From contig OY811973.1 in NCBI GenBank assembly GCA_963681505.1, forward strand, positions 13,142,268-13,206,267: 64,000 nt of DNA. Reading direction: 5' to 3'. Made by a program: the position numbers and the translations under genes. Position 1 is the first letter of the stretch. Each line of letters opens with the position of its first letter. Below the pieces are notes generated by a model. That model was not told the DNA's origin. It saw only the letters and a program-made list of their open reading frames with translations, and did not search any database. This DNA comes from Eunapius fragilis (taxonomy: Eukaryota > Porifera > Demospongiae > Spongillida > Spongillidae). Positions 6,108 through 46,371 of this stretch are shown here, piece by piece.

Positions 6108-6476
6108 CTGACTGTCCTTCATTTAACATCAACTACCCATCAATGAGAACACTCCTCTGTCCTGGGGACACCATCACCTACACCTGTGCCCTTAACAGTT
6201 CAAATACACCAGTGAGCACACAGTGGGTACTATCTGCCCAACAATGTCCCAATACTGCTAATGCCATCACACTGGCACAAGCAGCAGGTGCTTCACTCAA
6301 TCAAGCAGTAGTATCATGTGGTAACTTCTCTGCTGTGATGACCAACGTCAGTGGAACATGCTTCACCTCTGTCCTCACCATACCAACACCTCAATATTTC
6401 AATGGGACCACAGTCCTGTGCAGAGAAACTAACTTAGCTCCCGTTGGCAGTGGCACACTGAACATACAACTGGCAT
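6108..6476 (+). CDS. Gene A exon: Cys-rich Ig-like domain
   Basis: A 369-bp exon (acceptor at 6106-6107, donor GTAAGT at 6477), phase 1-1. The product has a B-strand-like LCPGDTITYTC, a core Trp in TQWVLSAQQCP, and an F-strand-like GTTVLC. Extra cysteines (QQCP, VSCG, GTCF) match positions in the exons at 33552-33932 and 60013-60414, defining a Cys-rich family rather than a plain two-Cys Ig domain. Several NxS/T sites suggest glycosylation. It probably contributes the outermost visible ligand-binding domain. The Ig assignment is from pattern only. Confidence 0.8.
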
Positions 6477-9400
6477 GTAAGTTAATTTTCATTACTTTAC
6501 CGATCCATATTATATTATGCATGACATCAGGATATGAATAATTATATTCTCAGGATCACAAAGGCTGTGCTCAAAATTCAATGGGCAATGTTATTGCATC
6601 CAACCAAAGTCTACCTAGAAAAACAAAATCCATCAATGATAACAATACTTTTATTGACCAATAGTAGATATGTATGGTACTGAAGAGTGTTTGATGAATG
6701 CATGGTGCAGCCTGTCCCCACCATCTTGACATAAGATATTATCTACAAAATGGCTATGAATACACTAACTTGTATATATGCAGGAGAGCCAACGTGCCTG
6801 GCAGTTTAGTCCCCACCTTCCATCATTGCATACGCCATGTACTTGCATCTTTTAATGATCATTATGGGTAGGCATCGTGAAGGCTTCTACACTAAGTCAA
6901 ATCATTCCATCTTGACTAGCGTAGTGATTTGGAGGCAAAGGGCATTGGTATACATTGCATTGAAGGTTTAATGCAGAGGTAAAACACATTTTTCATCACA
7001 GTACCAATGCCCATTGCCTCCAAATCACCTACTATAATTTCCAGTCAATCGCTAGCCATTTAAAACCACATATATTTGGAAGGGAGGCAGGAGTTAATTA
7101 TTTTAAGCCACCTTCTTACTCATTCTGGCACCACAATAACTAATTTGTGTGTACTAATATTTGTATTTACAACTTTTGTAACCACCTCTATTGGAAATGC
7201 AATCATATCAATCCTTGGTAAGCCCATGGTGGAGTAAAACCATTGAGCATCTGAATCATGGTCTACTGGACACAAAATTGCACATAGGGTCCGCAGTTCA
7301 AAATAACTACCTAGTTGCCACTGTAATTCTATTGTGACTATAGTGTGTGTCTAGCTGTTGATATGTAATTCTGATCATGTACATTGTAAACACTTCAGCC
7401 CCTCCCAGTGTTCCAACCATTAAAATTGAAGAAATCACAGTCAGCAGCATTAGAGTGAACTGGACATCTGATTCCGTTGCTACCAGCTACAATGTCAGTA
7501 TCAATGGCAACACTACCTTCCTACCTGCTAATGTTAACAGATATACATTCTCTGGACTAACCAGTAATACAACCTACACTGTCTCAGTGGTGGCCATCAA
7601 CTGTGCTGGGAACAGAAGTTTTACATTTACAAACAGTACAAGTAAGTTATTTCGGATTTCAAGTCACTTGCATGGGGGTGAGATTTCTTATGAATAATAT
7701 TGGGAGTTATGCTGTGATTGTTAATTCAATGATGAGCTTAGTATAGTTGAAGTGGTGGAGACATTGTCATTGCCGGGTTCTATGATTATTATAACTGTTA
7801 AGTATTGACCATTGGGTAGCCATATCCACTGCCCTGAAATATGGCTTTGTGAAGACATGGAGCCCATGCTAGCAGCTAATTACATTAATTTCTGAAACAA
7901 GTAATAAATCATTGTATATCATACCCAGACTTGTTTCCCAGGCTTGTCCTACTAGGGACGGTACATTGTGTCAGTTCGAATGCACCCCAGTGAACAGAAA
8001 AACTGATGAGTGTGTGTATAGACTGAAGGTTTTTGTCACCCACTAATGTCTCATACATTCTACTTGTACATCTATACATGTATGTTAGACTGTATAGCAA
8101 TGTATTATGAAGTTCTTTAAGTGATCACCATACCATGAAATCATTATCTTCACTGTTATAGTGAATAGGTGCATAAAATTTGAATAGTATTCTCTCCTTA
8201 GCAACAGCATGCTATTATTAGCAACACATGTCACTGCCTAGCAACAACATGTTTGTGACTTATCACTAAATGTGGATCCAATAATTATGTCGAAGATACC
8301 TTACGATTGAAAATGAACTGATCGAATGGTGTATGAATGCTACATAGGAATATAGTGTGGTACCCAGACCCATACACTCCACAGCAGTGGTGGATTACAT
8401 CACCACCCACGTTCATATGGTGGTGATCCGCTGCTATGGAGTGGGTCTGGGTACAATACTTCTGCACCCACATTGAAACTATGCAATGGCAGTGTAATGC
8501 AGATGTAGATACCATTATCTAATATCTGTATGAAGTTGTTGTGGGACAATGTAGTCTAAGGTATGGTGTTTTAAAAGCGGCTGGTATCCTTCCAGTCATT
8601 GAAGGAGATATGCCCCTTCACTGGCCCTCCCGTAGTGAATATCGTTATTCAACCCCCTTCATAAAATCCTGGATCAGCCCCTGAGCTGTAACAGATAAAT
8701 TTGGTCCCCACGCCAACATAGAATTTACTGTAAATCCCATGACAGCTCAAACAGAAATGTGCATGATGTCGGGGCAGTGCTCAGGAGAAAATAACCTCTA
8801 GACAAGGCTTAGTGTATCTCAGCTTTAATTTTAATTACCTTGTAATTTTAATAAAGTCGTGTGTGTACACATGAAGTTTAGTTGCATGTCGAAAGGTTTG
8901 AACAAAAGTTGAAATACATGTGGGGTGAAGCGGCATGCAATGCTTTCTCACACTATGCGAGAACCCATTACAGCAACTCTGGGAGATCTATATGGTAGGC
9001 TCACTATTACACTTGTCTAAGCAACATCAGAGCCATCCTTGCAAGCTCATGATATGTATAGAATAGTATGGACAATGTTTATATTACTTGGGTACACGTC
9101 TGTATGTACCTGTGTACATTCTTCTGTAATTGGTGATTACAGCATTGTTCTCTATTGCCAGGTACCCTACCATCATCTTCAGAAGGTGGGTATTTGTGAC
9201 AATGTAATCCTCGTTTGGTTTGGTGCTAATTGTTCTGTCATAAATGTTAAGTGTATGTGTCCACTTATTCTCTATGCAGTATTGTCTCCGTCATCCCCCC
9301 TCTCCCTTCCCCCTGCAATGTCAATATGTTCCATATTATTTTGTTTCCAAATTTCAAAGTCTGATGATTGAATTTGCACAGTATATATTTGAACTGATAG

Positions 9401-12400
9401 CCTTGTGCGTAAACAGATATTATCCAGTTTGCTAAGCCAAATCAAATCGGGAATCAGGAGTAAAAATGCACTCTAGTGTCCAGAAAACATTACAGTAATC
9501 ATTGATTACATTATAACTAATCAGTACACTTTCTGTACCAGCTGGTCTACGTGTTAGAGACATGCTTACAAATCCACCTGGTCGATTTTGTATTACACTT
9601 ACTAGGTTATGACTAAAGCATGGAGCTTTTGTGTTCAGTAGCCATGGTATTATGCTGTGTAATCTGCAATAAAAAGTGTTTGCAGAATTTCATTTCTCTT
9701 TTATGGCACGTGGTGCCATTGTTTGTCACATTAGTCTGGTAAAAGGAAACTGTTTTATCAACAAAAACACCATGTTTTGTGTTTAGGATAACCGTTTTTC
9801 ATAGCACAAATACTGTGCGGTTGTTGAAACTTCGCAGGTGGTTGATGCATCATTGGTATTCCTTTGTTATGGTTAGGCTGCTGTGTGTCACTAAAAAACA
9901 ACCTGGTTTGACAACGTAGCATATTATCTTCATATCCAAACTACTTGGTGATTATTAGTGAGAAAAGCTAGCCAAGTAGCTACATCTATACGTAAATTTC
10001 CTTCCGCGTTTAATCATCTCCTAGGGAGCTGGAGCAGCTGTGTGGTCAGTAGTGCTAACCAAATTTACAGTTTGACTGGTATACATGTGTACCTTGTACT
10101 TGGTTCCGGGCAAAAGGGATCCCAGATGGGTTACCAGCAACGGTCATAAGGTTTGCCCACAAAGTACATAAGGTGCTATCTGGAGACATGCAGAGCACTA
10201 CACCAGAGGATGTATACCCCCAAAGATTTGGAGGCATCCCATCTTACTGCTTACCTGAACAACAGAAGAGGGGGGGGGGGGGGGGGAGATAAAATGGCCA
10301 TAAACGGGCCAAATCCAAGTTGTGCTATCTTCAAAACGCTGTATCTCCTTTATTGTACATTATAGTCGAGCCAAATGTTGCATATTAGTGGTCCTATGTA
10401 TATAAAAGTCCAAACAGTTTTTTTTTTTCCCAGGAACTGTTCTTTTTTTTTTTTTTTAACTGCTTCTGTATGTAAATAATGGTAAATAGTCAATATGTGT
10501 ATGGTTTAGAGCTAATATTTAATGCCACCTGTCTGCGTATGTGAACCACTTGGTTAAAGTTATAGTGACAGTGCCCAGCAAAATCACCCCTCTGGTAGTT
10601 TTTTTCTTCTGTGAACTGCTTTCAATATCCAAATTTGGCCTATTCATCATAAAACTGTAAGGGAATAAGCCTAATGCGAGGGTTTGTTTTCAAAGTGAAT
10701 GCTGACTTTCCTAATTCATTGCAAATGTGAGCTTGTAACAGGTCTATCCAATTCAATACATATATATAGAGAGAGAGGTCTTTTGATTCAGATCAGATCA
10801 ATGTTATTTGATAAAGATAAAACTGTGGAATGTGCATACATGCTTTCCTGCTCAGTTCACCACAATAATGTTAGGTACCAGCCTTCCATACATTGAATGG
10901 AACACTATTTGTCTAAATCATTAGTGCGAAAGTGTACACACTTTTGAACGGTTATAATAAATATTGGCAAATCAGATGCAGTCATGTTCTAATTGGTATG
11001 CCAAGTGCAATTGGATAGTCATCAAGATAAAAAGACATTTTGCAGGTAGCAAATATAACGCACCAAAATAGTGTAGTATACACTGGTGAATTCAGCAATT
11101 ATAATGCACGGTTATACAATGTCTCCTAGGGTAAACTTCGCAGACAGCATCACATAGAAAGTCTTTGGCTTCATCTACTTCATGCCCAATCGTTATCGGG
11201 TTGTGGTTATTCCCTGAGTGTGTGCAAATTCAAACATCAGATCAGGATTTTGTAGTGTGCCAAAAACCATCAGTGTCCAGTCATAATGGTAATGGCCAAC
11301 ACAAGGTGTTTTACTTTGTGTTAGAATGAGAGTTTCTTTTCCACCTATCAGGGAGCTATGGGGCATCCCTTGCAGTAAGCATGGCAGTCCTTTTGATCTC
11401 TATGGCTATGGAGGTGTGAACTGAAACCACAGCACAGAAGTCCCAGTAGTAGTAAAAGCACTGAGTTAGAAAAAGATATTTACTTATCATGTTTTTTTTT
11501 TGTTTTTTTTTTTAGTTGCTGTGATAAGATGAAGGGTGTGATTTGCCATTAGTTTCAGTTCTACCATGTGTGGTTTACATATGCAGACTGGTGAAATTAT
11601 AACTATAGATTACGTCAACGAATCAACAAATCCCTCTGTGCAAGCTAATGTCTAATGTCCTGGGCATGTCCTGAGCGTACCTGTCGGGGCATGCTTATAC
11701 ACCACAGGATCAACGAAGATCTTAAGTCCTATGTTTACCAACGTAAAATGTATGTACTATACAAAAGTGCTAAATATTGGACTTTAAAAATTTTCGTATC
11801 ATTGTTGATTCCTTGTTCCCTTCCTGTTTACACCACCGTTGGCTTCAAGTCCTACTTTCTCAGAGAGAATGTTTTTAATATCTAGTTTCCTTCATTTTGA
11901 AATATTCTATCTCCTCCTCTTAGAAGCTTTCACTGCATCAGAATTCGTGCTACTTAGAAGCTCATTTCGATTTAAGATCTGCTCTGTAGTAGTCTCATCC
12001 CCAGACCCATGGCGAGTGGATTACATCACTGCTACGCAAATTTGCGTATTGGTGACAAAAATCCACCCACAGCTGCATACAATGGGACAAGACTAGCTTT
12101 GAAACTGTCACGAGCAGACGCCGACTTTTGTTCAGGATCAGCATTGTACCAAACTTTGAGGACTCTTAACTCGTCAACCGTTTCAATTTTGGAGGTATTC
12201 CTCTCGTCGTTTAGCTCTCCTCTTTTGTTGACGGGAAGGCAAGCCAAAAGTGGTGAACAAAAACTGCAATTAAAATGATATTGCATAAATTATTGCCACG
12301 GGACCCCTTTTGAAATAGAGCTCCATATTTTAATTTTTATCCGATACCTGGAGATCTTCTTCCAGGAAATTCTAAAGCGATTGGTATAATTTGTGCTTTT

Positions 12401-14961
12401 TAAAACCATTCCTATCCCGAGTTATACTCTCCTGAGGAGAAGATGACAATGACGGAGGTGAAGAATTGGTCTGGAAACGAGAACAGCATGCGCTATTTTT
12501 TTTTTTTGTTTTCTTAAACAGTCTGAAGATCTGAAAATTCTTTCTTTCTTTTTGGTTCGATAGCAGCAAAGAGCTGAACTATACATTTCTTGGTACGCAG
12601 GTCGCATTTTGGTAATGATTTCATGATACGGCACAAACCCTATATGGAACCTACTATCATATATTCCGATAATACCCTGGGGCAGCCTGGGCATGTCCTG
12701 GGTGTACCATCGGGGCACGCTTGTACACGCTTTGCCATGTTTGTACATGTCCTTATCCAGTTGGGCCAAAGGTTTGTAACTCCTTATGTACAAAATGGCA
12801 GAACGCATAAAACTTTGTTTCCTATGCACCATGGCTACAAGTGTGCTCGGATGGGTACACCCAGGACATTAGACATTAATCAGAGCAACCTCATAGTGTA
12901 ATGTCATCTACCTCTGAACTGCAATTAGATTCATCACTCTTGCTCTGAATGCTGTCTTGAATATGGACAGTTAGTTATTAGTGCAATACGTTGTGTACTA
13001 TAGACGGTGTTGTTAGCCCTGCCTTCTAGCTCTAGTCACCATCTGGTACATCAAATCTTGGAAATCATACTCATCTTGGACGTAGTAGTAGCCCAGGCTG
13101 AAAAGGTCATTCCTTCCCCTAGCCTTGATACGCTTGGTGTAGTGGGCCCACAGGCTCAGGGTTACCTGAGTGAGCTACCACATCTCTAAAGGGAACTGTG
13201 CATCACCTTTTCTGGTGTCACTGAACTAGTTTAGTTTGCTTATTGGAAGGTGTGTGTTGTGTGTGTGTGTGTGTGTGTGTGTGTTATGTGCTAGTCATTG
13301 ATTAATGGAATGCTAGACAATGTAGACAGTGGTTCTCTTCATCAAAAGACCTGTTTATTTATTAGCACACGGCCCCAGGTGAAGCTTATTGTACTACATA
13401 CAAGCAGCAAACAGGTAACTGCATGGGATGCAAGCCTTTCAAATTATTATTATAGCCAGCCAGGTGCTCTATGGACATACACATATCCTCTCCTCCTCTG
13501 TAAAAACAAGCACTATTGTCTGCATAACTCTGTAGTTGATGCGGAATGTCAAGCCAACCATATCATGTGATGGGAAGCCATAGCATATGTATGGTATCCT
13601 TGGTTATTGATTCACACTCCATTTCACCCTTTGTGTTTTCATTTGAAGGGATCTCTGTGCCAGGCAATGGTACACGGGCATGTGCTTCATAACTGTTCCA
13701 AACTCAACAACTAGTAAGGCACCTTTGGAGGAGAATGTATCAACACTAAGGTGAAGTAGAGGCAGCTGGAGGGGTGACCTTCAGCCACTATGAAAGGCAT
13801 CAACTCTACACCACTTTCCCATATCACACAGCCATCTTGCACTCGGTTCTATCGTCTCTTGCTGTATTGTTGAAATGCCTGAGCCCGGGTTAGTCAACGC
13901 ATCGCTGCATGACAAGAGAAGTTTCTTTTTCTTGTCATGCAGCCAAATCATGTGCCAAGAAACTGGCCATGTGATAGCGAGTTGATCCATAACCTCACAC
14001 CCTTGTGATCCACCAAGTAATACCTACAGTGCCAAGTAGTACCACTACTGATGTTCTTGTTGCCAAGGTCCTTGACCACACTCAGGTTCTCACATATCAC
14101 AATCGTAGGGTGCTAGCACAAATGTGAGCAGCACCATTACAGCGACAGGCAAGCACCAGACAACACACATACCCATCACAGTGTTGGATTGCCAGCTGGA
14201 CGATTATATAAAGCTCCCTCAGTTATACTGGTCTCTGCCTCACTGCACATGTTCTGTTCCATTGCCAACCAGCTACTACACACCCTTGTTGTTCACAGTG
14301 AACTTGATTTCACCACTTGCACCTTGCAGCTTAGGAGAGCATGTTTTTTAGTGGCAATGTGTGCATGATACTCATCCAATTTTCACCTATAATGTATCCC
14401 TTCACACCCAAACCTATTGTCACATGATCCTTCACACCACACCATTATGTCACATGATCCTTCACACCACACCTACGTCACATGATCCTTCACACCACAC
14501 CTATACCATATACCTTACATGCAAATTCAAGTATTGATAAGCTTTTTACACCTTCTAGGCATGTCTTCTTCAGTAGTGGAATCATCAGGTGAGCAGAGGA
14601 GAAATAAAGATTAGAATGTGTCCTCATGATGTTTTGAACTAGGCATTAATAAGTGTATAATCCACTGTCAACAATATCTAGAACAAGTTAATAAGTACTA
14701 GTTTTGTGCTCTGCCAACTTATCATTCATTATCCATGGATTATTTAACTTTTTTTTAATCGCAATCCTTCATTTTAAAAAGCTACAAATATTATTCACCT
14801 GCTTATGAAGCATACTTTGTAATGTTATGTGGAAAGTGCTATATATTTAAAGTGTACACTATATATCTGCATAAGGTACACTGCATAATCCCATACCTTT
14901 GATGGTTTCCCTCTGTCTAGCTGGGACTATATTGCCATCTATCTCAACAGGAGCAGGTTAG

Positions 14962-15049
<88 letters not shown>

Positions 15050-15766
15050 GCGTGCGTGCGTGCGTGCGTGCGTGTGTAATGTGTGTAATGTGTTTATTGT
15101 GTAGTATGTTATATAAATACAGTAGGTAACTATAACTTAACTCAGTGCATTGTACATTATAACTATTGGCAGGACTTCCAGATTCAACATCAGTTCCAGC
15201 ATCAGGCTCTGGACCAGTACCCCAGCCCTCTGGTTCCTCTGCTGTTGGTATTGGAGTAGGTGTTGCAGTAGCAGCCATAGTGGTGCTAGTGGTGGCCATA
15301 GTGGTGGTGGTGGTGATGATGGTGGTGATGCAGAAGAAGAAAGGTGATCCATGTCATAGGAAAATCTTTTTAAAAGTTCAGGTTGGAAAACATCTAGGCT
15401 GGTTGTGAACAAAAAGGCACAAAGAACAAAGGTGTTTTCCCATCCTGGGATTGAACAGTTAAAGCATATCAACCATCCTGGCTATGTCCTCGTTTTGCGA
15501 GGGAGGGGGGGGGGGGGGAGGGGGGGGGTGACCAGGTTAAACCTGGTTTTTATTCCACATAACTGGGACAAAATCAAGATGGTTGTACCCTGGACACTCA
15601 ATACCAAGATGGTGTGAACCTGCTGCCTTTTTATTAAAACTAGCCTGACACCTTCTGGACATATTATGTGTGGTGTTGTGGGGTCAGCTCTCATAATCCT
15701 TCCCTACACACAGGATCATCAGTAGCAAGCCATGATGAGTAAGTGCTTGTCCACCTGAGATTTGTG

Positions 15767-15798
<32 letters not shown>

Positions 15799-16082: not shown

Positions 16083-16760
16083 GGTGTGTGTGTGTGTGTA
16101 TGTGTGTGTGAGTGCGTGTGAGTGTGTGTGGTGTGCCTGTGTGTGTGTGTGTGTGTGTGACATCTTTTCTGCAAAGATTTGAACCTTGAGATGCATGGAT
16201 CAATATGCCAGCTATTCATGGTTTGATAGGGACATATTATCCAAAAAAAGGTGGGGTGTGGGGGTAGGGTGTGGTAGCTTTAGCACCTTCCCCTGAGTTA
16301 GTCAGTGTGCAACAGAAGGTAGATATATTATCAATATGGGTGCATTAAAATAAAATTTAACCCCCAATTATAAGGAATTGATTTAGATGCCTCATCGAAC
16401 AACATGATAGTAGAGCTCTAGTGCATGTACTCAATCAATCACTACCTAATCTCTCTTTCCCTTTTTCCCTCCCTCACTTCAGGTGATCGGGCCTTCATCA
16501 TTACATGACTAAGGGTGTAGTAATGGACATGCAGTAATTTTCAATCACTTTATGAACACTGTCTTTTTTCTTACACAGGTAGAATGTGTTTGTTTTATAG
16601 AACATGAAATGTGAGATGGACTAGTGAGATGATTTTATACCTCCAGTTAAAAATTATGTTTTTCAAATCATTGCTGCAAACTTGATAAAACTTTATAATT
16701 GCACAAGCAAATTCAAACAGATGTGGCACCATAAGGAGATACCTGTTCATTCTTCATGGC
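16083..16760. other. 3' flank of gene A
   Basis: Probable 3' UTR with a GT-rich microsatellite (16083-16160) and AATAAA at 16349-16354. The phrase CAGATGTGGCACCATAAGGA just before the minisatellite is shared with gene B's 3' flank at about 46910. Confidence 0.55.
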
Positions 16761-18025: not shown

Positions 18026-18029
18026 CACG

Positions 18030-18370: not shown

Positions 18371-18473
18371 TGGGGGCCACAGTCCAAGGAATACTGACCA
18401 TTAGCTCAATTACAATAGCCAAATTGATTGTCACACAGCTCCATCAGCATGCATACTCACATAAACCACTTAC

Positions 18474-18845
18474 CAACTATTTCCAGTACCTGGTAGTCCA
18501 CTGCTTACATGTAGGTCTATACACTCTATCACCAGCCCATTCATGCTTGAGTTAACTGTGACGGTGAGTGTGGACATTGCACATGATTGACCAATGGGAT
18601 TGTTGTTAGCCACACTGAGGTAGGCACCACATGTACCACTGGATGATGGGTTAGGAGGGGCACATGGAGCAGTCTGTCCCAGGGTAATGAAGTTACCAGT
18701 GTATGGACACTGGCCTGGTTCAGTGTAGTGAAGAGCCATCGTGTGCTGGAGGTGGTACCAGTGACAGTACAGGTACATTTAGTAACAGTCCCAGGACAGA
18801 GAGGTTGGGAGATGTCACGGCTACACAATAGGGTCTGGGCACTAC
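18474..18845 (-). pseudogene. Inverted Ig pseudo-exon of the receptor family
   Basis: Minus-strand homologue of the gene B Ig exon (33552-33932), with acceptor (CCACAG) and donor (GTAAGT) preserved. Shared stretches include RDISQPLCPGT, TRWLFTTLNQ and APPNPSSSGTCG. A 5-bp insertion after the Asn-Gln codons of TLNQ shifts the frame and leads to a stop. An 8-bp deletion just before the donor would bring the frame back. It is a dead copy, unless one indel is an assembly error. Its opposite orientation shows that the cluster has rearranged by inversion as well as tandem duplication. Confidence 0.85.
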
Positions 18846-20340: not shown

Positions 20341-20342
20341 GA

Positions 20343-29106: not shown

Positions 29107-29107
29107 G

Positions 29108-30100: not shown

Positions 30101-30214
30101 TGGCTATTTTATGGTTGTTTTATTAATAATACTGCGATCACGTGAACGAGTACTTGTAAACGGAGACCGGATCGAGTGTGGTGAGTTCAATCAGAAGTAG
30201 TAATTATGGTAGCC

Positions 30215-32178: not shown

Positions 32179-32225
32179 CCCACAAGTGAAATTTTTTAAG
32201 GCAAAGTAATCTTTTGGGATGGACA

Positions 32226-33932: not shown

Positions 33933-36900
33933 GTAAGTGATCCATAAATATGGTCATACACATTGAATGATGTTCTGTCTATGTACATGTATGATATTTT
34001 GTGGAGTTACACATTGCAGAAGTTGTGTTTACATCAGAACACACTCTGCCCAGCTGTGGAACACACTATGGGATGCATGTTTCAATAGCATCACTTACAC
34101 TGTTGTCACGTTGCTGCATGCATGTATGTATGACCTATGGGTCTGAAAGAAAACAGAATTGAACATCACATCTGAGTTCTGATGCGAAAAGAGTTACCCC
34201 AGCGCATCTATTTATAAATGTGTGGATAGTCTGTCTATCCTTGACGTCTGTTCGTTTCTTGAGCATGTGGCTAGGCTGTTTTAGAAAAAAAGTGATCTTT
34301 CAATTCCTTTAAGGTGATACTCAAAAATGTATGCAGAGCTGCAACAGGCCTCTAGTTTAAATCAAAATGGCAATTGAAAGTGGAAGCCAAGTTTACTCAT
34401 GGGTGTTACTCATTAAAGTCTGCGACACCATCAAGGAAGTAAAATAAAAGGTGTCTTTGGGGTAGGTTAGACATATTGTTTTCCGCAGACCATCTCGTAT
34501 TATTAAAAATTCAGTGAGTTGAAACTAATGAGCGAGACTATTATCTAATACTATAATTTCCATCGTACGTACGTACGTCCGCGTAACTCATATATATACT
34601 CGGCCTAGCACAGATTGGTTGCTAGGCATGTACGCGTACCTAGCTACCAATAGGAACGACCACCTCCCACATAAAAGGCGGTCGCAATGACAGCTGGTTT
34701 CCACTTCACATTTAATATCTAAATTTTTTTAAAATTCAAAGTGGGGGAGGGGGGGAAACTGCTTAAGTGCCGAAAGAATAAAAGCAACGCTATTGTGGTT
34801 CACTCTGAAGTCTCATCGTACAGGCCGAGAACATGTAGTTACTATCTGCAATTGCGCGGGCATGTTATAGAGGTTGCGTAGTAACCGTTTAGAACAGGTG
34901 ATAGATCAGTTATATATGCAACATTTGGTAAAACAGCCGGTTGAAAAAAGAGGAGCTAGGAGGTAGACCAACTGTTCATCTGCATGGCAAATGAATAGCG
35001 AGACGAATGATCAGCCCGTGATTTTTCACGGGGACACACTAGTTAACGATAATTAACAAGTAGCGTGTGTGATCACTATCACATGAAAACACTTCGAAAT
35101 GTTTACATATACAAAAGGGTCTCTGGGCGCGAAAACAAAGTCAAATGGATCACAAAAGCGCAATAGTCATATACAAAAGGGCCTCTGGGAGCAAATAAAG
35201 CTACAAGGAGCGGCCCTTATCTAACACTAAGCAAACCATGGTTCTGAACAGTTATTTTAGCGACAACTGTTGTTTACACAGTCTAAAGGTGGCGTCAGTA
35301 ATGAGGCTAAACAGTAAAGAATGTATTCTTGAAAATCAAACAGACAGTGTAAAAGCAGAAAACGAGATATTGTATTTTTAGAGGTAGCAATACATGCAGA
35401 ATATGATTCTTTATTTTACAAAATAATGGTCGAATTGAATAAATATTTGAAGTATGTGTGTATTCATGGCATTTGTGGGTACAGGGGAAGGTTTGCTCAT
35501 CTACCTTACATTTTTACAGATACTTTGTTATCTCCGTTAGAAATGTTTTAGATGGGAAAAAAAACTGTGCATTTAGAGATACAGCTAATATTTAATATAT
35601 ATGAATAACAAAGTTATGTTTAGGAACTACATGTATTACTCTCCTGGGGTGTTTGCGAAAGAACGCAACGCTTTAAAACCCCTATAACTCAGGATCAAAA
35701 TTCATTAACTGCTTGATTTCTTTAACATATGTTGCAGTAGTTGGGCAAATACAAATAATCCAATTAGGTTTCAATTATTTTAAGCGGTTAAGTAACTGTA
35801 TCAAATCCCTCATAAATCAAAATATTCAAAGCCCTCTATTAACAAAATTATTCAAGATTGTGGTTTGCGATAATTGATTTTAATAACTAGTAATAAGTAA
35901 CACACGATCTGGATATGCGGTGGAACCTGGATATGCGGTGGAACAGTACTGATTTAGCTTCAATAGTGAGTTATTCACATTTAAGACCATCATTTGCTTT
36001 AAAGTTATTAAGGTTGAAGCTGTTATGTGGTTAATATTTTTAATAACCATCATAAATTATTCCAGTATTAAATAAAGTACAAAACACTACTTGATTTGGT
36101 AATGGATTATTTAATGGTGCGTTATTAAAACTCAAAGTTAAGAAAAACGTAGTGATCATATAGCTTTTTCAAGTTTGATTTGTTGTTTTACTTTTTCAAA
36201 GTCTCATCAATTCTATTCTGCAGTTTATAAATCACATTATTAATTAAAAGTTATCGTACATTGTTTTGTCAGTTTAGTTAATTGCAAGCTATTTGATTTT
36301 ATCTTTTGAACGGCTAAAGATAAACGAATTGTTACGATGCGGATTGTATTTGACTAAACGTGGTTATTGTACGTTCATAAATTCATTTAGATTGACAATC
36401 CTATTAATGAATTATATTCATTTTAAAGCGTTGCGCTCTTTTGCAAAGACCCTGTATATCCACCCCTTAAGAGGAGGGACCGAGCATTGGCCCGCACTAG
36501 TGTTAAGTTCAGGCGGCCATACAAGTTGGAGACCACCTTGGACTGGTGGGGGTGTTGGTCCTTGTGGCACGGTGTGAAGCATGTCTTGAGAAAGCTTGGA
36601 CAGCTTCCCTGCCCCAAGGCTCCATATTACTCCACCATAAGGGGTGCTTTGCTACATGTGCAACTACTCTGCCTCAATGTTTCAGCCCCTCCCAGTGCTC
36701 CAACCATTACATCACCGACAAACATCAATTCAGACCAGCTAACAGTGACCTGGACATCTGTTCCCATGGCTACCAGCTACAATGTCAGTATCAATGGCAG
36801 CACTCCTATCTCCCTACCTGCTAATGCTAACACATACACATTCACTGGACTGACCAATAACACAGTCTACACTGTCTCAGTGGTGGCCATCAACTGTGCT

Positions 36901-39900
36901 GGGAACAGCTATGCTGCCATGACAGCCAGAACAAGTAAGTGAGAGGGTGGGGGAGGGTGTGCTGGAGGGAGGGTGTGCTGGGGTAGCGTGTGCTCAATGG
37001 TGGCCATCAACTGTGCTGGGAGAAGTGTTCAATAATATATGGATGTAAGGGCTGGGGAGGAGTATAGTGATATGTGAAAAGGGTAATATACAACTGGTGC
37101 AGCTGTCACAAAGAAATAAGTACTTCAAAAATGTTCATAGTTACTTTACGGCACTGAGAACACATGGACTTTTATCTTAAATGTAACAATGTAACATTCT
37201 GATGGCCAAGGGTATATTTTAGAATCCCGATTTCTCTGGACTAACTGTATCATCACAAAGTGCACGGAGACCCACTGCACCCCGGAGACTGGATGAGCTA
37301 TGCTAAAAGAACGAAGTGTTTTGTCATCAGGGAGTGTACAATGTTGACACCTTTAATCGTTTCTAACCTGTTGTACTACATGTATGTAAACATGCATATG
37401 TACCCTCACTAGCTTGCTACATTGCTGACCACAGCATTGTTCTCTCTTTATTAGACCTAGCACCGCCATCAACACCACTATCACCAGTATTATCATTACC
37501 ACCTTTAAGAGGTGGGTGTCCATGACTGCTGTGTGCATCATGCATTTGGTGCTGTTCATTGGTGTACGGCACCTTTGGTGGTAACATGTGCAAATTGATG
37601 TGTATGTTCACACTTAAACCTTTGTATTTCATGTATACGTGTAGCCATGACAACATGTGTCTGTTTGCCAATAAGAAGAAATAAAATTGGTTTTTCTTTA
37701 ATTCAGCTACCTTACAGCATAATATGTTTTCATATTTGAAATATATATGCTTTCTGTAGTTCTCTATGTCTGTCAATGTAATGTTCTGCATGTGCCAGTC
37801 TGTGTCCATTCAACCTGACAAAGGGCAAGCGGACCCATTTATGTCCTGAGTTAAACTTTGTCATGGTTTACACAATCAGATGATTGAATTTGCACAGTAT
37901 TTAAACCAAATGATAAGCTTGTGGGGAAAAAAAAATTTTGTACAGTTTTTGGATCCCTAGAGCATGCAGAACATGTGTGTACCTATTAAGTAGTAGCTGG
38001 TAATAGGCCTTTAAATAATTGTATATCCTAGCAAAATAAAAAATCATATTTTGATTCCACAGGTACCGATATCTAAATGTGGCGGTTACAGAATTGCGTA
38101 CCTTTAAACACGAGCCTTTTTTTGTTGGGGGCTGAGGTATTAACAGCTTCTCATTCTGTGCCATGCTCAACATTTAAATGCTGTTCCATTGCAATAACTA
38201 GGCATCTTGGTATTATGAATGGCAAGAATATTCATAGGCATATATATATCAGTTTTTATAGTACATGTGTGGTAAAAATCCATCATTTGAACCAATTTAT
38301 ACACAGCAAAAAGGCGCAAAATCATATTCTGTGATCTGTTTTTTTTTTTTTTTTTTTCATATCTGTACCAAAATGATAACAGATATGAAAAACAGATCAC
38401 TCATACAAGAAATATATGCGGAAGCGTTCACTATTACAAAGATACTGTCATTCAAACACGAGATTATTTTTCACAGGGGGCGGAGAGGCGGGAAGGGGAG
38501 GGGGGGGGGGGCTTATAAGGGTTACCAGGCAGTCATAGGTTCTTATGTTGCAGTCATTAGGTGTGTAGTGTGTTCCCACAACTTTATCAGTGAGTTCATC
38601 ATTACCATTGACCACATTCTGCCTGTGTCCATCATCGGGTATGCTTCACAAGCACAGATCATGGAGGTGGTGGGCTATGTTGGATCATAAAGGTGATGGA
38701 GGTGGTGGGGTATATTGGATCATGGAGGTGGTGGGCTATGTTGGATCATGGAGGTGATGGAGGTGGTGGGCTATGTTGGATCATGGAGGTGGTGGGCTAT
38801 GTTGGATCATGGAGGTGGTGGAGGTGGTGGGGTATGTTGGATCATGAAGGTGATGGAGGTGGTGGGCTATGTTGGATCATGGAGGTGATGGAGGTGGTGG
38901 GCTATGGAGGTGGTGGAGGTGGTGGGCTATGTTGGATCATGAAGGTGGTGGAGGTGGTGGGGTATATTGGATCATGGAGGTGGTGGGCTATGTTGGATCA
39001 TGGAGGTGGTGGAGGTGGTGGGCTATGTTGGATCATGGAGGTGATGGAGGTGGTGGGCTCTGTTGGATCATGAAGGTGATGGAGGTGGTGGGCTATGTTG
39101 GATCATGAAGGTGGTGGAGGTGGTGGGGTATGTTGGATCATGGAGGTGATGGAGGTGGTGGGTATTTTGGATCATGGAGGTGGTGGAGGTGGTGGGCTAT
39201 GTTGGATCATGAAGGTGATGGAGGTGGTGGGCTATGTTGGATCATGGAGGTGGTGGGCTCTGTTGGATCATGGAGGTGGTGGAGGTGGTGGGGTATGTTG
39301 GATTATCAAGGTGGTGGGCTATGTTGGATCATGGAGGTGATGGAGGTGGTGGGTATGTTGGATCATGGAGGTGGTGGTGGTGGTGGGGTATGTTGGATCA
39401 TGAAGGTGATGGAGGTGGTGGGCTATGTTGGATCATGGAGGTGATGGAGGTGGTGGGCTCTGTTGGATCATGGAGGTGATGGAGGTGGTGGGCTATGTTG
39501 GATCATGGAGGTGATGGAGGTGGTGGGCTATGTTGGATCATGGAGGTGATGGAGGTGGTGGACTATGTTGGATCATGGACGTGGTGGAGGTGGTGGGCTA
39601 TGTTGGATCATGGACGTGGTGGAGGTGGTGGGCTATGTTGGATCATGGACGTGGTGGAGGTGGTGGGGTAGGTTGGATCATGGAGGTGATGGAGGTGGTG
39701 GGCTATGTTGGATCATGGAGGTGATGGAGGTGGTGGGCTATGTTGGATCATGGAGGTGGTGGGGTATGTTGGATCATGGAGGTGGTAGAGGTGGTGGGCT
39801 ATGTTGGATCATGGAGGTGGTGGAGGTGGTGGGCTATGTTGGATCATGGAGGTGGTGGAGGTGGTGGGCTATGTTGGATCATGAAGGTGATGGAGGTGGT

Positions 39901-42900
39901 GGGCTATGTTGGATCATGGAGGTGATGGAGGTGGTGGACTATGTTGGATCATGGACGTGGTGGAGGTGGTGGGCTATGTTGGATCATGGACGTGGTGGAG
40001 GTGGTGGGGTAGGTTGGATCATGGAGGTGATGGAGGTGGTGGGCTATGTTGGATCATGGAGGTGATGGAGGTGGTGGGCTATGTTGGATCATGAAGGTGA
40101 TGGAGGTGGTGGGCTATGTTGGATCATGGAGGTGATGGAGGTGGTGGGCTATGTTGGATCATGGAGGTGATGGAGGTGGTGGGCTCTGTTGGATCATGGA
40201 GGTGATGGAGGTGGTGGGCTATGTTGGATCATGGAGGTGATGGAGGTGGTGGGCTATGTTGGATCATGGAGGTGATGGAGGTGGTGGGGTAGGTTGGATC
40301 ATGGAGGTGGTGGGCTATGTTGGATCATGGAGGTGGTGGAGGTGGTGGGCTATGTTGGATCATGGAGGTGGTGGAGGTGGTGGGCTATGTTGGATCATGG
40401 AGGTGGTGGGCTATGTTGGATCATGGAGGTGGTGGAGGTGGTGGGCTATGTTGGATCATGGAGGTGGTGGATGTGGTGGGCTATGTTGGATCATGGAGGT
40501 GATGGAGGTGGTGGGGTATGTTGGATCATGGAGGTGATGGAGGTGGTAGGCTATGTTGGATCATGGAGGTGGTGGGCTATGTTGGATCTTGGAGGTGATG
40601 GAGGTGGTGGGCTATGTTGGATCATGGAGGTGATGGAGGTGGTGGGCTATGTTGGATCATGGAGGTGATGGAGGTGGTGGGCTATGTTGGATCATGGAGG
40701 TGATGGAGGTGGTGGGCTATGTTGGATCATGGAGGTGATGGAGGTGGTGGACTATGTTGGATCATGGAGGTGATGGAGGTGGTGGACTATGTTGGATCAT
40801 GGAGGTGATGGAGGTGGTGGGGTATGTTGGATCATGGAGGTGATGGAGGTGGTGGGGTATGTTGGATCATGGAGGTGATGGAGGTGGTGGGCTATGTTGG
40901 ATCATGGAGGTGGTGGGGTATGTTGGATCATGGAGGTGATGGAGGTGGTGGACTATGTTGGATCATGGAGGTGGTGGAGGAACCAGGTGAAGGTGTGAGG
41001 TATATTAGACATGGACACAAATATAATGAAGTGTAAAGAGATGGTATTGTTTAGAGGGCTTTGTGGAATGAATTCTGAATAGAGCAGTGCTGACATCTAA
41101 TAAAATTTCAGCTAAAGTCCATTCTGGTAGACATTTATGTAAGGCACACATTGATAAAGTGAATTCTATCATCAGTGCCACACATATATAGCATTGCTTC
41201 TCACTCGCATGTCAAATAGATTATGTCGTTGGTCAAATAGATTATGCTGTTGACAAATTCTATCTCTGTGCAAGCTTCAAATTTAAATGCACCACAATCT
41301 GGGGGTGATTATCAGTTCTCAAAATAACGGGCTGACATAGGTCAATTTGCGCATATGACCGCGCAACTTGCACTAGAGCAGGTCATTTGGTCCGACCATT
41401 CCGTACTGTGGTGTTAATTACATGTAGTTATGGTAGCGATTGTGACTGGGATATGCATGATGACATCTAACCAAGTGGATTGTGACAACAGCTGTTTTAG
41501 TATTAATTAGACCACATCAGCATATAAGATTATGCAGCTAGGACAACAACTTCTGAAAAAGACAGTACAGAGATAGAAGGTGAAGAGGAAATGGATATGC
41601 TCAAAAATTGGAATGACTGGATGGCTCCTTTACCTTCAGATAGTGACAATGATTAATTGTATCTAGATCTAGCACTCAACTTGATTTAACTTACACACCT
41701 GTTCTACAAACATACATGTATATACATGCATATACATATTAGGATGTCCGAACAAATCTGACAATGTCCGCCCAAAGTTAATATTGGTCTGCCAAATGTC
41801 CGACCAAAATTTGGTCCTTATTTTGAGGGCTGGATTATGGTTAATAATGCTACTGGCTTTATCTAAGACAACCAACACTAAAGTCATAGATAAGTACTAA
41901 AATATCAAGGTCAAAGAGTGACCTAATTTTGGGAAGGGGTAGAGTGATTGGTATCATATGGTCCCACCCCCTGCATTTGACCATGCTTTCTAGTGCGGAC
42001 CATACATGTTTATAAACTTGATGTGCAGTAAGACATACACAATACTTCTACTCCCATTATAAGGCCACCTACGTTCAACCCGCCCCCCTCCCTCAGCTAC
42101 TTATGCCCATGTGATTAAAGCATGACATTGTAAAGAAGCACATGGCTAAAAGGCAGACTACTGTTGTAAATGTTATGACCTGAAAATTCCACATGCAGCA
42201 TGAGCCCTAGTTTGATTGCTTTGGTAAGGCTGCATCTTTCTGAGCATGGGCTTATAATTGTACACATATCCTAGACTTGCAGGTTAGTTATTAAGTACTC
42301 AGAGAGGTTATTTTTGTTGTGTAGATTGACTTGCAATCAAATAGCATTGAAAACTGTTTAATTTCACTAACACAGTGTTAAAATCTCATCGTTGAAGTTG
42401 TATGTTATTGTTCCTCAAAGAGATAAATTCATATTCAGTCTTTCCTCAGGACATGTATGTCAAGTAACTACTTTACTTGAACCTCTGAAATTCTTGCAAT
42501 TCCTGTGCTTTTTATTGACTGAAGTTATTCATGTGGTCAAGTGAATAATTGCTGCTGAGTGATGATTTTGTGCTTAGCCTTGTCATCATCACATGTGCCC
42601 TCATAAATACTCATCCCAACAACAGGTCAGGGGCGGGCGGAAGCAGGAATAAAAGAAACGGGGGGGGGGGGTCCAGTGTGAAAAATTGAGGAAAAGTACA
42701 GTGCGTGCAAAGTTTGCCATATGCCTTACATCATTGTTCATAGGAAAGGGGGGGTCCGGACCCCCCCCCCCCCCCCCCCCTTCTTCCCACCCCCCCAAAT
42801 CCACCCCTGCAGGTAGAGTACATTGAAGCTGCTCCATTACATGTCTCATGTCTAATGTTGTTGAAATGGGATTATGACAGGGGTATGGATCTCACTATCT

Positions 42901-45818
42901 TCTGTCTTTCAACAAGCTACAGCATATTGCTTTTTTGAATGATGCTTATTATGGTTAACCTTACAATTCTGTGCTATGATTGGTTCATGATGATAAGAGG
43001 ATTAAATTTTGTTTACATTTCTTATGTAGTAAGTTTTTTCTTGCCATCACACAAACAAGTGGCTATTTCTTGTCAGCTTTGGAATTGATGCACAACTCAG
43101 TGTTAGATTAAGCTAGCTCTTATCCCTCTGTGTGCCTTTATTATTTCATCACGTACTAGTTGTAAATAGTTTTCATTTCAGCCTTGACCTGAACTGCTCA
43201 GTCCACATGCCATGGTACCTTTAAACCACTTACTAATTCTCTGTTTTACCATGCTGATGAAATCTCTTGACTCTGCTTAACTTAACAAGTCCACATTAGC
43301 TATATCAAGGGAGCAGTAACGTACTGTTTTTGCCATGTGTACATGTACCTTTGAAAAACATGCCATGGTTTATCTTTGTCAAGATGATTGCTCATAACCT
43401 AATGATCGACTATGCCATTACCTACCACCTGACTGCATATGGAAACCACTTAGCTGGGGGGGGGGGGGGGGTGGGAAGGGGATTTATACTTACAGATTTC
43501 TAGTAGAAAATTTTAAAGGGTATTTGCTTTGGCTTCATGTGCCAACTAAATAATTGTGATTGGTCTTTTGAAATTAGTAACTGAGTGCAAATTCAATCAT
43601 CAGATCAGAGTGTTAGATGCAAAGCAGTATTTGTTCCTAGTTACAGTTAGAAGTTAAAACTGTCCCTGCCCCATAAAAATTTCAGGTTAAATGGACAGGG
43701 AATCACCAATACAAGATGTGAACTTTGTGATATGTGATTCTCCCCTCCCATATCATGCATATCAGGGAGCTTTAGGGCAACAACTCTTGCTGAAAGTGTG
43801 GCAGTCCTCCTCATGATCTCTGTGGTCCTGGAGGTGTGGACTGAGACTTAGTGCAGCAATCAAGCGTAGAGGATAAGCTATATAGAGAGATAATGTTCAG
43901 TACACATGTGCTGTTTGTTACTTTTATTTATAAACATTAGCATTGCTGCGCAGAGATGGACAGTTATATTTGGCCATAAGTATGTAGTGCAACTACACTG
44001 AAGTGGTTTACATATGCAGTCTCTGGTACAGTGGGTTCAGCAAGCATGTAAAAAATTACTTATTGCACTGTAGTACGACCAATTATCTTCAAATAGCATC
44101 ATGGCCTTCTTTGAGTTTGAACTGACCTCTCAGGTCACTGGAGGGGATGTGAACTGCTTATGCCATATATGGTAATGCTGGTATTTTCACGGCATGCATT
44201 AATGGCTATCTGATGTATGATCTTTCCTGCCATCTCCAACATTGTAGTCATGGTAACCCACATATGAAATTGAGATAAAAATGTTAAAACGCCTGAATAT
44301 GTTTTAATATAAGCCCTCAGCTGAAGTCCATTGCTGATGTCCATTGCTTTATGGGCTGGTAAGAGGCACGGCTGATACATGTATGTCTAATGTCATTGTG
44401 GTCCAAGAAATGTCCTACCAAGGAATGGACAATATGGAGGCTTTGACAGCCACCCCCCACGAGTTATGCGTGGTCAAGAAGAAAGAGGAGGATAATTTCG
44501 GGACTGGGTACGAGGACAGGCAGTAGCCTTTTGTTCTCTACAAGGTTTTGCGACTTAAAACTAACAACGAAAGTACTCCCTTTAATCTTCTTGTTCCATT
44601 ACAACAATTAGCTAAATGATCCGACCATCAGGAGTCTCGCTATAAATGGGTCACGTGTTTTTAATATCCTACATGGAAGTTTTAACTTCCGATAGCCACT
44701 AACTGGTTATACTGATCTTAACCCCACTGATGGTCTGTTTCATTACTAACTAGTTACTACGCCCTTACTATTCACATCAGACCATAAAGGGGCTGCTTAA
44801 TATTTCTTTGGAGAAAATGTTTCCATTTATATTAGTGTGTGTAACACATTCGTTTGAAGGGAGCAATGTGTATATGCTTGTTCACTATGTAATGTGTGTC
44901 ATTCATCTCATACCCTTATGTCACATCATCCAATCATTCTTATGTCACATGATCTCTTCATACCACATCTCTTGAGTCACATGATCCCTTTCTATCACAT
45001 CACCTGAGATGCCATGTCCAGTGTTGATTTTTTTTTTTGCATCATCTAGGTGTGACTTCTTCAGCAATGGAAACATCAGGTGGGCAGTGTGGTGGTACAG
45101 GGAGATAGATTATAATTTCCTTCTTTTAGAACGATATATGGTTTATCTCTATGTGTTACTGTGATTACAATGAGTTCCTAATATCTAGTGTATACAAAGT
45201 TGGATTAAGAAATCTCTTAATTAACCATGTATATTTGTTTTAACCATTATTTCTTTTATCCTTCTAGGATTATAAAACTTTTACGTATAGACTAATAATA
45301 ACTCTCCTTGCTTATGGAGCATGCACATACATATGTACCCAAGGTACATATGTATGGGCACCTCAAGGTACATATGTATGTGCACCTCAAGGTACATATG
45401 TATGTGCACCTCAAGGTACATATGTATGTGCACCTCAACAGGAGCAAGTTGGCAGTGTGTACATGTTTGTTACATGTGTACACATAACCTACTAAATGGC
45501 AGGACCTACACCCATAGTCACTGATGGACCAGCACCCACCACCTCTGCTGTTGGTATTGGAGTAGGTGTTGCAGTTGCAGCCATAGTGGTGCTAGTGGTG
45601 GCCATAGTGGTGGTGGTGATGGTGATGGTGGTGGTGCAGAAGAAGAAAGGTGATCCATGTCATAGGAAAATCTTTTTAAAAGTTCCGGTTGGAAAACATC
45701 TAGGCGGGTTGTGAACAAAAGACAGCAAGTTCCGTGCTTTCCCACCCTGGGATTGGGTGGTATAAATGTAAAAACCATCCTGGTTTTGTCCTGGTTTTGT
45801 GGGAAAGGGGAGGGAAAG

Positions 45819-45850
<32 letters not shown>

Positions 45851-46371
45851 CTGGTTTTTGCTCCATAACCAGGATAAAATCTAAATTGATTTCATGCTTT
45901 CCAAGATGGGAAAGCAGTGAAATTGCTGCCTTTTACAACCTGCTTGGATTGTGTTTGAAAAATTCTGGGCATTTCATGTTGTACTTGGGGTCAGCTCTCC
46001 CATGATCTCTCCATACACACAGGGCCATCAGTAGCAGGCCATGATGAGTAAGTGCTTGTCCACTGAGATTTGTGATCTTGTGTGTGTTTGTACATGTGTG
46101 TTGATAAGTGATACACCTGCCTTTGTTTACACTGAATACAGAAATGATAAAAACACTATACGACTGCCACCAAAGGGCATGCCCCCTCCTCCCAAGGTAC
46201 CCTGTTTGGTGGTGACTCATGTAATCATTGTAATGGTGTTACTTATATCAGCCTGAAGGACTCATCTATGCTGAGGTGGGGCTTGGAGCAAGGGTCCCCT
46301 TGCAAGTGCCTGTACCCAAGGAGCCTGTCCCTGTGATATACTCTGCAGTACAGCCCCACCAGGCCACATGA
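33552..46371 (+). CDS. Receptor gene B: Ig-like + FN3 + stalk + TM + dual-ITIM tail (5' end not identified)
   Basis: Tandem paralogue of gene A. Proposed exons: 33552-33932 (Ig-like), 36686-36934 (FN3), 37455-37511 (stalk, LAPPSTPLSPVLSLPPLR), 45050-45079 (stalk), 45503-45649 (transmembrane), 46023-46047, 46142-46196 and 46252-46371 (cytoplasmic, TGA). Phases match gene A throughout and the joined frame is open. A stalk exon equivalent to gene A 14921-14956 may lie in the repeat at about 45345-45446. The tail keeps PLPP-like and PPPPK stretches, LIYAEV and VIYSAV. The Ig domain is clearly different from gene A's while the last exon is almost identical, as expected for a family that varies its ectodomain but keeps its signalling part. 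The signal peptide exon is not seen and could lie in the 22.7-33.5 kb stretch. Confidence 0.82.
33933..34543. other. Intron of gene B
   Basis: No exon recognised between the Ig exon and the third Helitron-like copy. Confidence 0.5.
34544..35042 (+). mobile_element. Nonautonomous Helitron-like element, copy 3
   Basis: 499 bp inside the Ig-FN3 intron of gene B. A|TCTAATACTATAATTTCC at the start; CCCGTGATTTTTCACGGG and then CTAG|T at the end. An internal GT-to-purine-rich insertion (GTGGGGGAGGGGGGGAAA, about 34741) distinguishes it from copy 2. Confidence 0.82.
35043..35640. other. Intron of gene B, AT-rich
   Basis: Phrases ATACAAAAGGG and CTCTGGG occur twice at 35110-35190. No exon recognised. 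Confidence 0.45.
35646..36456. mobile_element. AT-rich element with imperfect TIRs
   Basis: GTGTTTGCGAAAGAACGCAA then CGCTTTAAAA at the left, and the near-complement TTTTAAAGCGTTGCGCTC then TTTTGCAAAGACC at the right, bound about 0.8 kb of AT-rich DNA in the gene B intron. No coding capacity and no clear target duplication. Confidence 0.55.
36423..36600 (-). pseudogene. Retroelement-like coding fragment
   Basis: Minus strand reads KVVSNLYGRLNLTLVRANAR and SLLLR, matching the relic at 24.9-25.1 kb (LYSRLNLTLVRAVARALLAR). It ends only about 85 bp before the FN3 exon of gene B. Confidence 0.55.
36686..36934 (+). CDS. Gene B exon: fibronectin type III domain
   Basis: A 249-bp phase 1-1 exon, acceptor TTTCAG, donor GTAAGT. 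FN3 features: APPSAPTI, DQLTVTWTSVP (Trp of strand B), TSYNVSINGS, FTGLTNNTVYTVSVVAINCAG. Nearly identical to the donor-less copy at 20722-20993, and less close to gene A's exon. Confidence 0.92.
37455..37511 (+). CDS. Gene B micro-exon: Pro/Ser stalk
   Basis: A 57-bp phase 1-1 exon between TTATTAG and GTGGGT, coding LAPPSTPLSPVLSLPPLR. It is the counterpart of the 24-bp exon of gene A at 9162-9185 and more than twice as long. Confidence 0.65.
37512..38660. other. Intron of gene B
   Basis: Contains a hairpin at 38331-38400 (GTGATCTG, a long T-run, ATATCTGT and their complements) and a G-run near 38500. No exon recognised. Confidence 0.5.
38660..40982. repeat. 35-/26-bp minisatellite in gene B intron
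   Basis: About 70 units of GGGCTATGTTGGATCATGGA followed by GGTGATGGAGGTGGT. The short form lacks one 9-bp ATGGAGGTG step. Neither length is divisible by three. The Gly- and Trp-rich frames it produces are artefacts. The G-rich strand is the coding strand of gene B. Confidence 0.95.
40983..43809. other. Intron of gene B
   Basis: A short acidic frame (EIEGEEEMDM, LPSDSDND then TAA at 41654-41656) looks like the C-terminal end of a gene or transposon protein but is too short to assign. G and C runs occur at 42661, 42748-42780 (a C20 run after GGGGGGGTCCGG) and 43456-43473. About 43570-43810 matches gene A intron DNA at about 11215-11390. Confidence 0.5.
43810..44150. repeat. Segmental duplication shared with 18030-18370
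   Basis: Counterpart of the 18.0-18.4 kb block, with about one difference per 10-15 bases by eye. Belongs to the ancestral receptor intron. Confidence 0.85.
44151..45049. other. Intron of gene B
   Basis: Loosely alignable to gene A 14200-14550, including CACATGATC-type repeats at 44930-45010. No exon recognised. Confidence 0.45.
45050..45079 (+). CDS. Gene B micro-exon: Ser/Thr stalk
   Basis: A 30-bp phase 1-1 exon, acceptor ATCTAG, donor GTGGGC, coding VTSSAMETS between split Gly codons. Same length and phase as gene A 14559-14588. Confidence 0.68.
45336..45446 (+). repeat. 24-bp tandem repeat at the site of a stalk exon
   Basis: About four copies of ACCTCAAGGTACATATGTAT plus GTGC, ending in TCAACAGGAGCA, which is the end of gene A's stalk exon 14921-14956. 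The period is a multiple of three and stays open (TSRYICMC per unit), so it could be an expanded exon. No acceptor of the right phase was found, so exon status is open. Confidence 0.7.
45503..45649 (+). CDS. Gene B exon: transmembrane helix
   Basis: A 147-bp phase 1-1 exon. A short PAPTTSAVGIGVG lead, then an Ala/Val/Ile-rich helix ending in VVVQKKKG. Nearly identical to gene A from SAVGIGV onward; the stalk part before it differs and is shorter. Confidence 0.88.
46023..46371 (+). CDS. Gene B cytoplasmic exons with two ITIMs
   Basis: Exons 46023-46047, 46142-46196 and 46252-46371 (TGA). They code PSVAGHDENDKN, LPPKGMPPPPK, then a last exon differing from gene A's at one residue (VIYSAV instead of VIYSTV). 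Both ITIM-type tyrosines keep their 24-residue spacing. Confidence 0.88.

Follow-up and report, generated by a model that had tools for sequence, protein, structure and literature searches.

Two neighboring genes of the freshwater sponge Eunapius fragilis encode predicted Ig-FN3 receptors with a conserved double-ITIM tail

A 64,000-nucleotide (nt) stretch of contig OY811973.1 of the freshwater sponge Eunapius fragilis (assembly GCA_963681505.1, positions 13,142,268 to 13,206,267), referred to here as the window, was found to contain two genes, A (6108-16082) and B (33552-46371), for putative receptors with two immunoreceptor tyrosine-based inhibitory motifs (ITIMs) in the cytoplasmic tail. The gene models were assembled exon by exon from the DNA, with open frames and AG/GT splice sites as criteria, and all of the listed exons were open and bounded by such sites. 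Both genes begin, as modeled, with an Ig exon, followed by exons for an FN3 domain and a transmembrane (TM) segment and by a three-exon tail, and the ectodomain exons were of symmetrical phase 1-1. The exons were as follows.

6108-6476, forward strand: gene A Ig exon, V-set-like Ig domain, phase 1-1
7399-7641, forward strand: gene A FN3 exon, phase 1-1; Pfam fn3 at 41.7 bits (cut-off 25)
9162-9185, forward strand: gene A possible short stalk exon (tentative), indicated by AG/GT sites and phase 1-1 only
14559-14588, forward strand: gene A possible short stalk exon (tentative), AG/GT, phase 1-1; aligns with gene B 45050-45079
14921-14956, forward strand: gene A possible short stalk exon (tentative), indicated by AG/GT sites and phase 1-1 only
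15173-15343, forward strand: gene A TM exon, 171 nt; homologous TM in Ephydatia muelleri P0002
15714-15738, forward strand: gene A cytoplasmic exon 1, 25 nt
15855-15909, forward strand: gene A cytoplasmic exon 2, proline-rich (IPLPPKDTPPPPK), 55 nt; IPLPPK retained in P0002
15963-16082, forward strand: gene A last exon with LIYAEV, VIYSTV, and stop, 120 nt
33552-33932, forward strand: gene B Ig exon, of an Ig subfamily other than that of A
36686-36934, forward strand: gene B FN3 exon; Pfam fn3 at 41.6 bits
37455-37511, forward strand: gene B stalk exon
45050-45079, forward strand: gene B possible short stalk exon (tentative)
45503-45649, forward strand: gene B TM exon, 147 nt
46023-46047, forward strand: gene B cytoplasmic exon 1, 25 nt
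46142-46196, forward strand: gene B cytoplasmic exon 2 (IRLPPKGMPPPPK), 55 nt
46252-46371, forward strand: gene B last exon with LIYAEV, VIYSAV, and stop, 120 nt

The Ig exons of both genes, though undetected by Pfam, were predicted to adopt a V-set-like Ig fold, consistent with the V-type Ig beta-sandwich that defines the V-set. A and B are modeled as single-pass type I receptors whose predicted extracellular part consists of a V-set-like Ig domain and an FN3 domain, one of each. The Ig-FN3-TM architecture assigned to them in an original prediction, made from the window alone, was borne out by the open exons, the AG/GT sites, and the Pfam fn3 matches. Its observation that the tail exons are identical in length (25, 55, and 120 nt) and phase in the two genes was also correct, as was its placement of the DNA in an early-branching animal; the TM exons are unequal (171 versus 147 nt).

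The tails of A (GSSVASHDENDKNAIPLPPKDTPPPPKPEGLIYAEVGLGARVPLQVPVPKEPVPVIYSTVQPHQAT) and B (GPSVAGHDENDKNTIRLPPKGMPPPPKPEGLIYAEVGLGARVPLQVPVPKEPVPVIYSAVQPHQAT) are 70 residues each and contain exactly two tyrosines, preceded by a proline-rich, SH3-ligand-like stretch. As originally proposed, both tyrosines of each tail, in LIYAEV and VIYS(T/A)V, fit the ITIM consensus [SIVL]xYxx[IVL] and lie 24 residues apart. ITIM-bearing receptors are defined by this consensus in the tail, usually with two or more motifs, and in A and B it was present at two of two tyrosines. When the tails were shuffled, two or more matches were obtained in 46 of 20,000 shuffles for A and 37 of 20,000 for B, and in 6 to 84 of 20,000 per tail across the six tails tested (A, B, and four from E. 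muelleri). At the DNA level, the motif pattern matched five times in the window, at the four motif sites and at one other.

Homologous proteins numbered 46 for model A, of which 32 carried an E. muelleri name or Em gene identifier and 14 were unnamed, and 61 for model B, 58 of them with such a name or identifier. The protein P0002 of E. muelleri aligned with A over Ig, FN3, TM, and tail, and its tail retained IPLPPK as well as KPEGLIYADIGL (LIYADI) and VAYSTV at a spacing of 24. P0063, P0065, and P0071 retained KPKEALMYADVG (LMYADV) and VAYSD[VI] at a spacing of 27 to 30, with a linker that scarcely aligned. Both ITIM motifs are kept in two genera, in four E. muelleri proteins, with a poorly alignable linker, and conservation of the double-ITIM tail beyond chance is supported. 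The 82 proteins retrieved may include fragmentary models and models of the same genome annotated twice; by our own criterion 37 had no TM, while 17 had YxxV-type tails, 20 had other tails, 3 ended at or just after a hydrophobic stretch, and 5 were scored as double ITIM. The fifth of these, P0040, was rejected because the pattern had matched extracellular tyrosines, and P0068 was set aside as what looks like a decayed tail. A search with the tail region of P0002 for more double-ITIM tails returned only P0002 itself, and the LMYADV-type tail was not found in the Eunapius genome in a search that had no positive control.

The Eunapius genome searched comprised 24 contigs and 218,937,333 bases, and the counts given are of matches; they take in fragmentary as well as broken copies and, for the large families, are minimum values. 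A protein search with the ITIM exon gave three matches from three candidates, namely A, B, and a copy on C9 that by our own reading has lost the second motif, and a DNA search added one further decayed copy approximately 200 kb downstream of A. With 150 of 174 candidates scored, the A-type Ig exon had at least 122 matches, 10 of which contained internal stops, and with 150 of 176 scored the B-type Ig exon had at least 72; a frame-broken copy of the latter also lies in the window at 18485-18846 on the reverse strand. The common tail of the family was a different one, represented in the window by the following exon:

49404-49652, reverse strand: TM and YDEV-type tail exon (TVYDEVG...NAAYG) of a related receptor, the query behind the 117 genome matches

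No family Ig or FN3 exon was recognized upstream of this exon on its strand within the window, and it may be either an orphan tail or the tail of a diverged ectodomain. All 127 candidates were scored to give the 117 matches, of which 6 contained internal stops and several followed Ig exons of the A and B subfamilies. Forty of the matches, chosen rather than drawn at random, were fetched; 34 kept YxxV and 22 fit TxYxx[VI]. The 19-residue TM core was free of charged residues in 39 of the 40, and no activation motif (ITAM) was seen by eye in these relatives. An Arg was located in the TM core of L065 (C8:4210100-4210500) and just past the core of L064 (C8:5570100-5570600), a basic TM residue being a feature used by vertebrate activating receptors. 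SH2 domains of the Nck or SAP type are candidate docking partners for motifs of the YDEV type. A third phosphotyrosine tail (VYDTL...KYADL...VQYSG[VI]) was common to E. muelleri P0048 and to C8:153434-153780, where it reads VYDTL, KYADL, and VQYSGI and sits 2 kb past a B-type Ig match. The double-ITIM tail thus looks like a rare, conserved branch of a very large, mostly YDEV-tailed family. The proposal that a whole family of variable ectodomains is coupled to the double-ITIM tail was not upheld, with 2 intact ITIM tails versus 117 YDEV-type matches.

Exons closely similar to the ectodomain exons of A and B were found beside other tails. The Ig exon of A was 97.6% identical over 378 nt to one at C3:13095757, which was followed on the same strand by an FN3 exon (13096931) and then, without a further exon of the family being detected in the interval, by a YDEV tail (13110796); the three probably form one gene, designated A'. 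The closest relatives of the B Ig exon, 90% and 87% identical, lie in compact reverse-strand Ig-FN3-YDEV loci, and one of the two YDEV-type tails has an internal stop. When A was compared with the YDEV gene by Blastn, the matches were confined to the Ig exon, with an Ig fragment directly preceding it, and to the FN3 exon; the Ig match stopped only a few bases from the splice sites. The same held between B and its relatives. Synonymous divergence (dS) was 0.045 for the Ig exons of A and A' and 0.04 to 0.17 for the eight Ig and FN3 exon pairs tested. For the 300-nt flanks of these eight pairs, 16 comparisons were made against 60 shuffles each; in 14 the real score was lower than the highest shuffled score, in one it equaled that score, and in one it slightly exceeded it (30 versus a largest of 27). 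Unlike these, the flanks of the A/B TM and ITIM exons (3' introns) aligned strongly, and among five YDEV-tail pairs the flanks were clearly homologous in two, weakly in one, and not in two. The Ig and FN3 exons therefore appear to have spread by exon-restricted exchange, to which very fast intron turnover is the alternative. Near-identical ectodomains on different tails, which characterize paired receptors, were found here at the level of exons, and the tails would be expected to differ in function.

With moderate confidence, A and B are interpreted as an inhibitory branch, docking SH2 phosphatases, within a paired-receptor-like family built by exon-restricted exchange. Once a ligand is bound, both ITIM tyrosines would be phosphorylated by a Src-type kinase, and a tandem-SH2 phosphatase (SHP2-like) would dock on the two motifs 24 to 30 residues apart. 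The docked phosphatase would then dampen neighboring co-engaged receptors by local dephosphorylation, the most plausible targets being the much more numerous YDEV-tailed relatives, whose ectodomain exons are of the same kinds. In this view a small number of inhibitory receptors would stand beside many members of other types, as among the paired receptors of vertebrates, and the Ig and FN3 exons of the family would have moved onto different tails by gene conversion or exon shuffling, leaving their introns behind. Each step for A and B, from splicing through a ligand, phosphorylation, SHP2 docking, and inhibition to an immune or allorecognition role, is a prediction, and the inhibition mechanism is modeled on motif chemistry and established ITIM receptor biology. 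SHP2 is reported from choanoflagellates and, among sponges, from Amphimedon (PMC7260276).

Several observations weigh against this interpretation. Only two intact double-ITIM tails, those of A and B, were found in the genome beside the two decayed ones, although diverged tails could escape such a search, and the ITIM consensus was also matched once in 5 and twice in 3 of the 40 sampled YDEV-type tails. Because no ITAM was seen and the TM core was uncharged in 39 of 40, the YDEV relatives do not qualify as activating partners of the vertebrate type, and for the same reasons the family is described as paired-receptor-like and not as a member of that class. The FN3 exon and YDEV tail of A' are 14 kb apart and are linked by strand and order only. 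The models of A and B were derived from DNA, with their splicing predicted, and no convincing signal-peptide exon was found for either gene in the window by a weak scan that also failed on seven relatives; its low-power candidates were at 5966-6017 for A and at 24247-24337 and 30081-30180 for B. A gene combining SH2 and protein tyrosine phosphatase (PTP) domains was not located in the Eunapius genome by exon-wise searches, which are weak where exons are split and in which the listed PTP matches were mostly from one contig; the SH2 list and the incomplete PTP list were compared by eye, and in the single region read, C22:876500-884500, there were PTP matches and no SH2 matches. As a separate observation, PF00102 (PTP) had 192 genome matches, and most among the matches listed were on C10, mainly at 5.5 to 8.5 Mb, in a very large exon cluster.

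It is possible, at a rather low probability, that the tyrosines are real docking sites of a non-inhibitory kind, binding SHP2, Grb2, PI3K, or similar proteins in adhesion or growth signaling, and that A and B are ordinary adhesion receptors. ITIM-like motifs do occur on adhesion receptors such as PECAM-1 and SIRP. The presence of two motifs at a spacing compatible with tandem SH2 domains, in two tail subtypes, argues against this reading, as do ectodomain exons common to differently tailed members, a property of paired receptors.

A further explanation, considered unlikely, is that the matching tails of A and B reflect nothing but recent duplication or local gene conversion, with one or both genes becoming pseudogenes and the tail not maintained for function in this species. 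The ITIM exons were identical at 117 of 120 nt and differed at 1 of 39 residues, while the preceding intron (53 to 55 nt) was identical at 51 positions and mismatched at 2, fewer mismatches than expected from the 18% divergence taken from neighboring introns (P = 0.002); introns further upstream were approximately 81 to 84% identical. Since the adjoining intron is equally similar, the identity of the two tails does not by itself demonstrate a fixed module, and its use as proof of selection was rejected; recent duplication or conversion therefore explains the likeness of A and B. The same 28-bp minisatellite unit occurs downstream of both genes (16755-18010 for A, 46946-47195 for B), consistent with duplication of their 3' part, and the two decayed tail copies and the lack of a convincing signal-peptide exon in the window scan point in the same direction. 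The contrast that had been drawn between a fixed tail and a varying ectodomain thus fails for A versus B. Within the tail, the near-identity is limited to the ITIM exon, as 6 of 27 residues differ in cytoplasmic exons 1 and 2 (counted manually from the translations). The description of the Ig domains as diverged was also rejected, as A and B use different Ig subfamilies; in genome searches at E ≤ 0.001 neither Ig exon, used as query, listed the other.

An origin of the match in duplication or conversion alone, with decay of one or both genes, is countered by the open state and AG/GT sites of every listed exon, by the retention of both motifs in Ephydatia, and by the distribution of nonsynonymous changes, 1 in ∼86 sites of the ITIM exon versus 6 in ∼60 of the adjacent tail exons (Fisher P = 0.02, from hand-entered approximate counts). 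The ratio of nonsynonymous to synonymous rates (dN/dS), proposed as a check of tail against ectodomain, was computed, and the ITIM exon had too few changes (1 nonsynonymous, 2 synonymous) for it to decide; the contrast between FN3 and ITIM exons in these changes gave P = 0.095. Over 22 pairs, dN/dS was above 1 in 5 and below 1 in 17, from small counts whose significance was not assessed; the values above 1 were 1.75 for A_FN3/B_FN3, 2.21 for B_FN3/B48_FN3, and 1.21 to 1.32 for three others. Constraint on the tail appears in the comparison with Ephydatia and not in that of A with B. A chance match in a proline-rich tail of unrelated function is highly improbable given the shuffle controls and the cross-genus conservation in six tails, even though the consensus is short and 3 of the 40 sampled YDEV-type tails match it twice.

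Sponges have allorecognition, and Geodia Ig-RTK is one sponge molecule of the immunoglobulin superfamily (IgSF). Vertebrate ITIM paired Ig receptors (LILRB/LILRA, KIR, SIRP, CEACAM, and PIR) resemble the sponge genes in having an Ig ectodomain, a single TM, and tandem YxxV/I/L motifs, as well as near-identical ectodomain exons beside different tails in clustered genes. They differ in being multi-Ig, whereas A and B are Ig plus FN3, and in an alternative tail that consists of a charged TM and ITAM adaptor instead of YDEV-NxAYG; sequence kinship between the two groups was not established. Among invertebrates, ITIM motifs are reported on Ig receptors of Hydractinia (Alr) and Botryllus (fester co-receptors, FcoR) (PMC12065747). 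Compared by description, Alr is likewise a multigene IgSF family of an early-branching animal, and some of its candidate genes carry motifs of the ITIM/ITAM type (PMC12065747 and PMC11999971), but it has V-set and I-set domains and is linked to fusion and rejection, a link not known for the sponge genes. The FcoR are described as type I with a V-type Ig domain, as is predicted for A and B, and carry ITIM, hemITAM, or core YxxI/L/V tails within one family (PMC12065747); they have sushi and C2 domains (V-Ig, sushi, two C2-Ig), are linked to fuhc, and pair with fester genes. Neither a sushi nor a C2 domain was detected by Pfam in model A, a model without its 5' end. The Geodia IgSF adhesion molecule and the aggregation factor are sponge cell-surface recognition molecules, as A and B are predicted to be, compared here by description, and no ITIM or YDEV tail is mentioned for them in the accessible text of PMC11999971. 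The receptor family was originally noted as not known to be described, and no sponge counterpart or ITIM-type sponge receptor was named among the papers listed by the literature searches, a part of those that matched, which is weak evidence as subscription papers were mostly outside them; the accessible part of the E. muelleri genome paper likewise does not mention the family. A and B would work like an ITIM-bearing paired receptor and are not assigned to that class.

If A and B signal as predicted, ITIM-style immune control reaches back to sponges, and a double-ITIM receptor in a large sponge Ig family makes the age of ITIM signaling logic testable in a sponge; E. muelleri is cultured in the laboratory (PMC7385117). 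The exon-restricted homology offers a system for studying the germline diversification of receptor repertoires. Much more tentatively, the family may represent a freshwater-sponge germline repertoire of ∼100 genes, with exon-exchanged V-set-like Ig and FN3 domains on a few conserved phosphotyrosine tails (double ITIM; YDEV-NxAYG; YDTL/YADL/YSG[VI]), giving combinatorial, inhibitor-balanced recognition in which ITIM control either is as old as the animals, or older, or was independently invented.

Other features were noted in the window. An Ig_3/I-set exon of another gene lies between A and B at 22365-22679 (forward), and an isolated FN3 exon at 20724-20972 (forward). Several Ig_3/I-set exons at 54772-58341 (forward) probably belong to a single multi-Ig gene, and the last of these exons is closely preceded by a pyrimidine-rich minisatellite of 1.6 kb (56472-58075). 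An exon of a third Ig subfamily (SQTLPCQLTGGTNCPTKICPNTAVNYTCN...) at 60018-60416 (forward) looks similar, on visual comparison, to E. muelleri P0039, P0043, and P0046. Positions 1-3927 are occupied by a 27-bp minisatellite of ∼145 copies at 97%.

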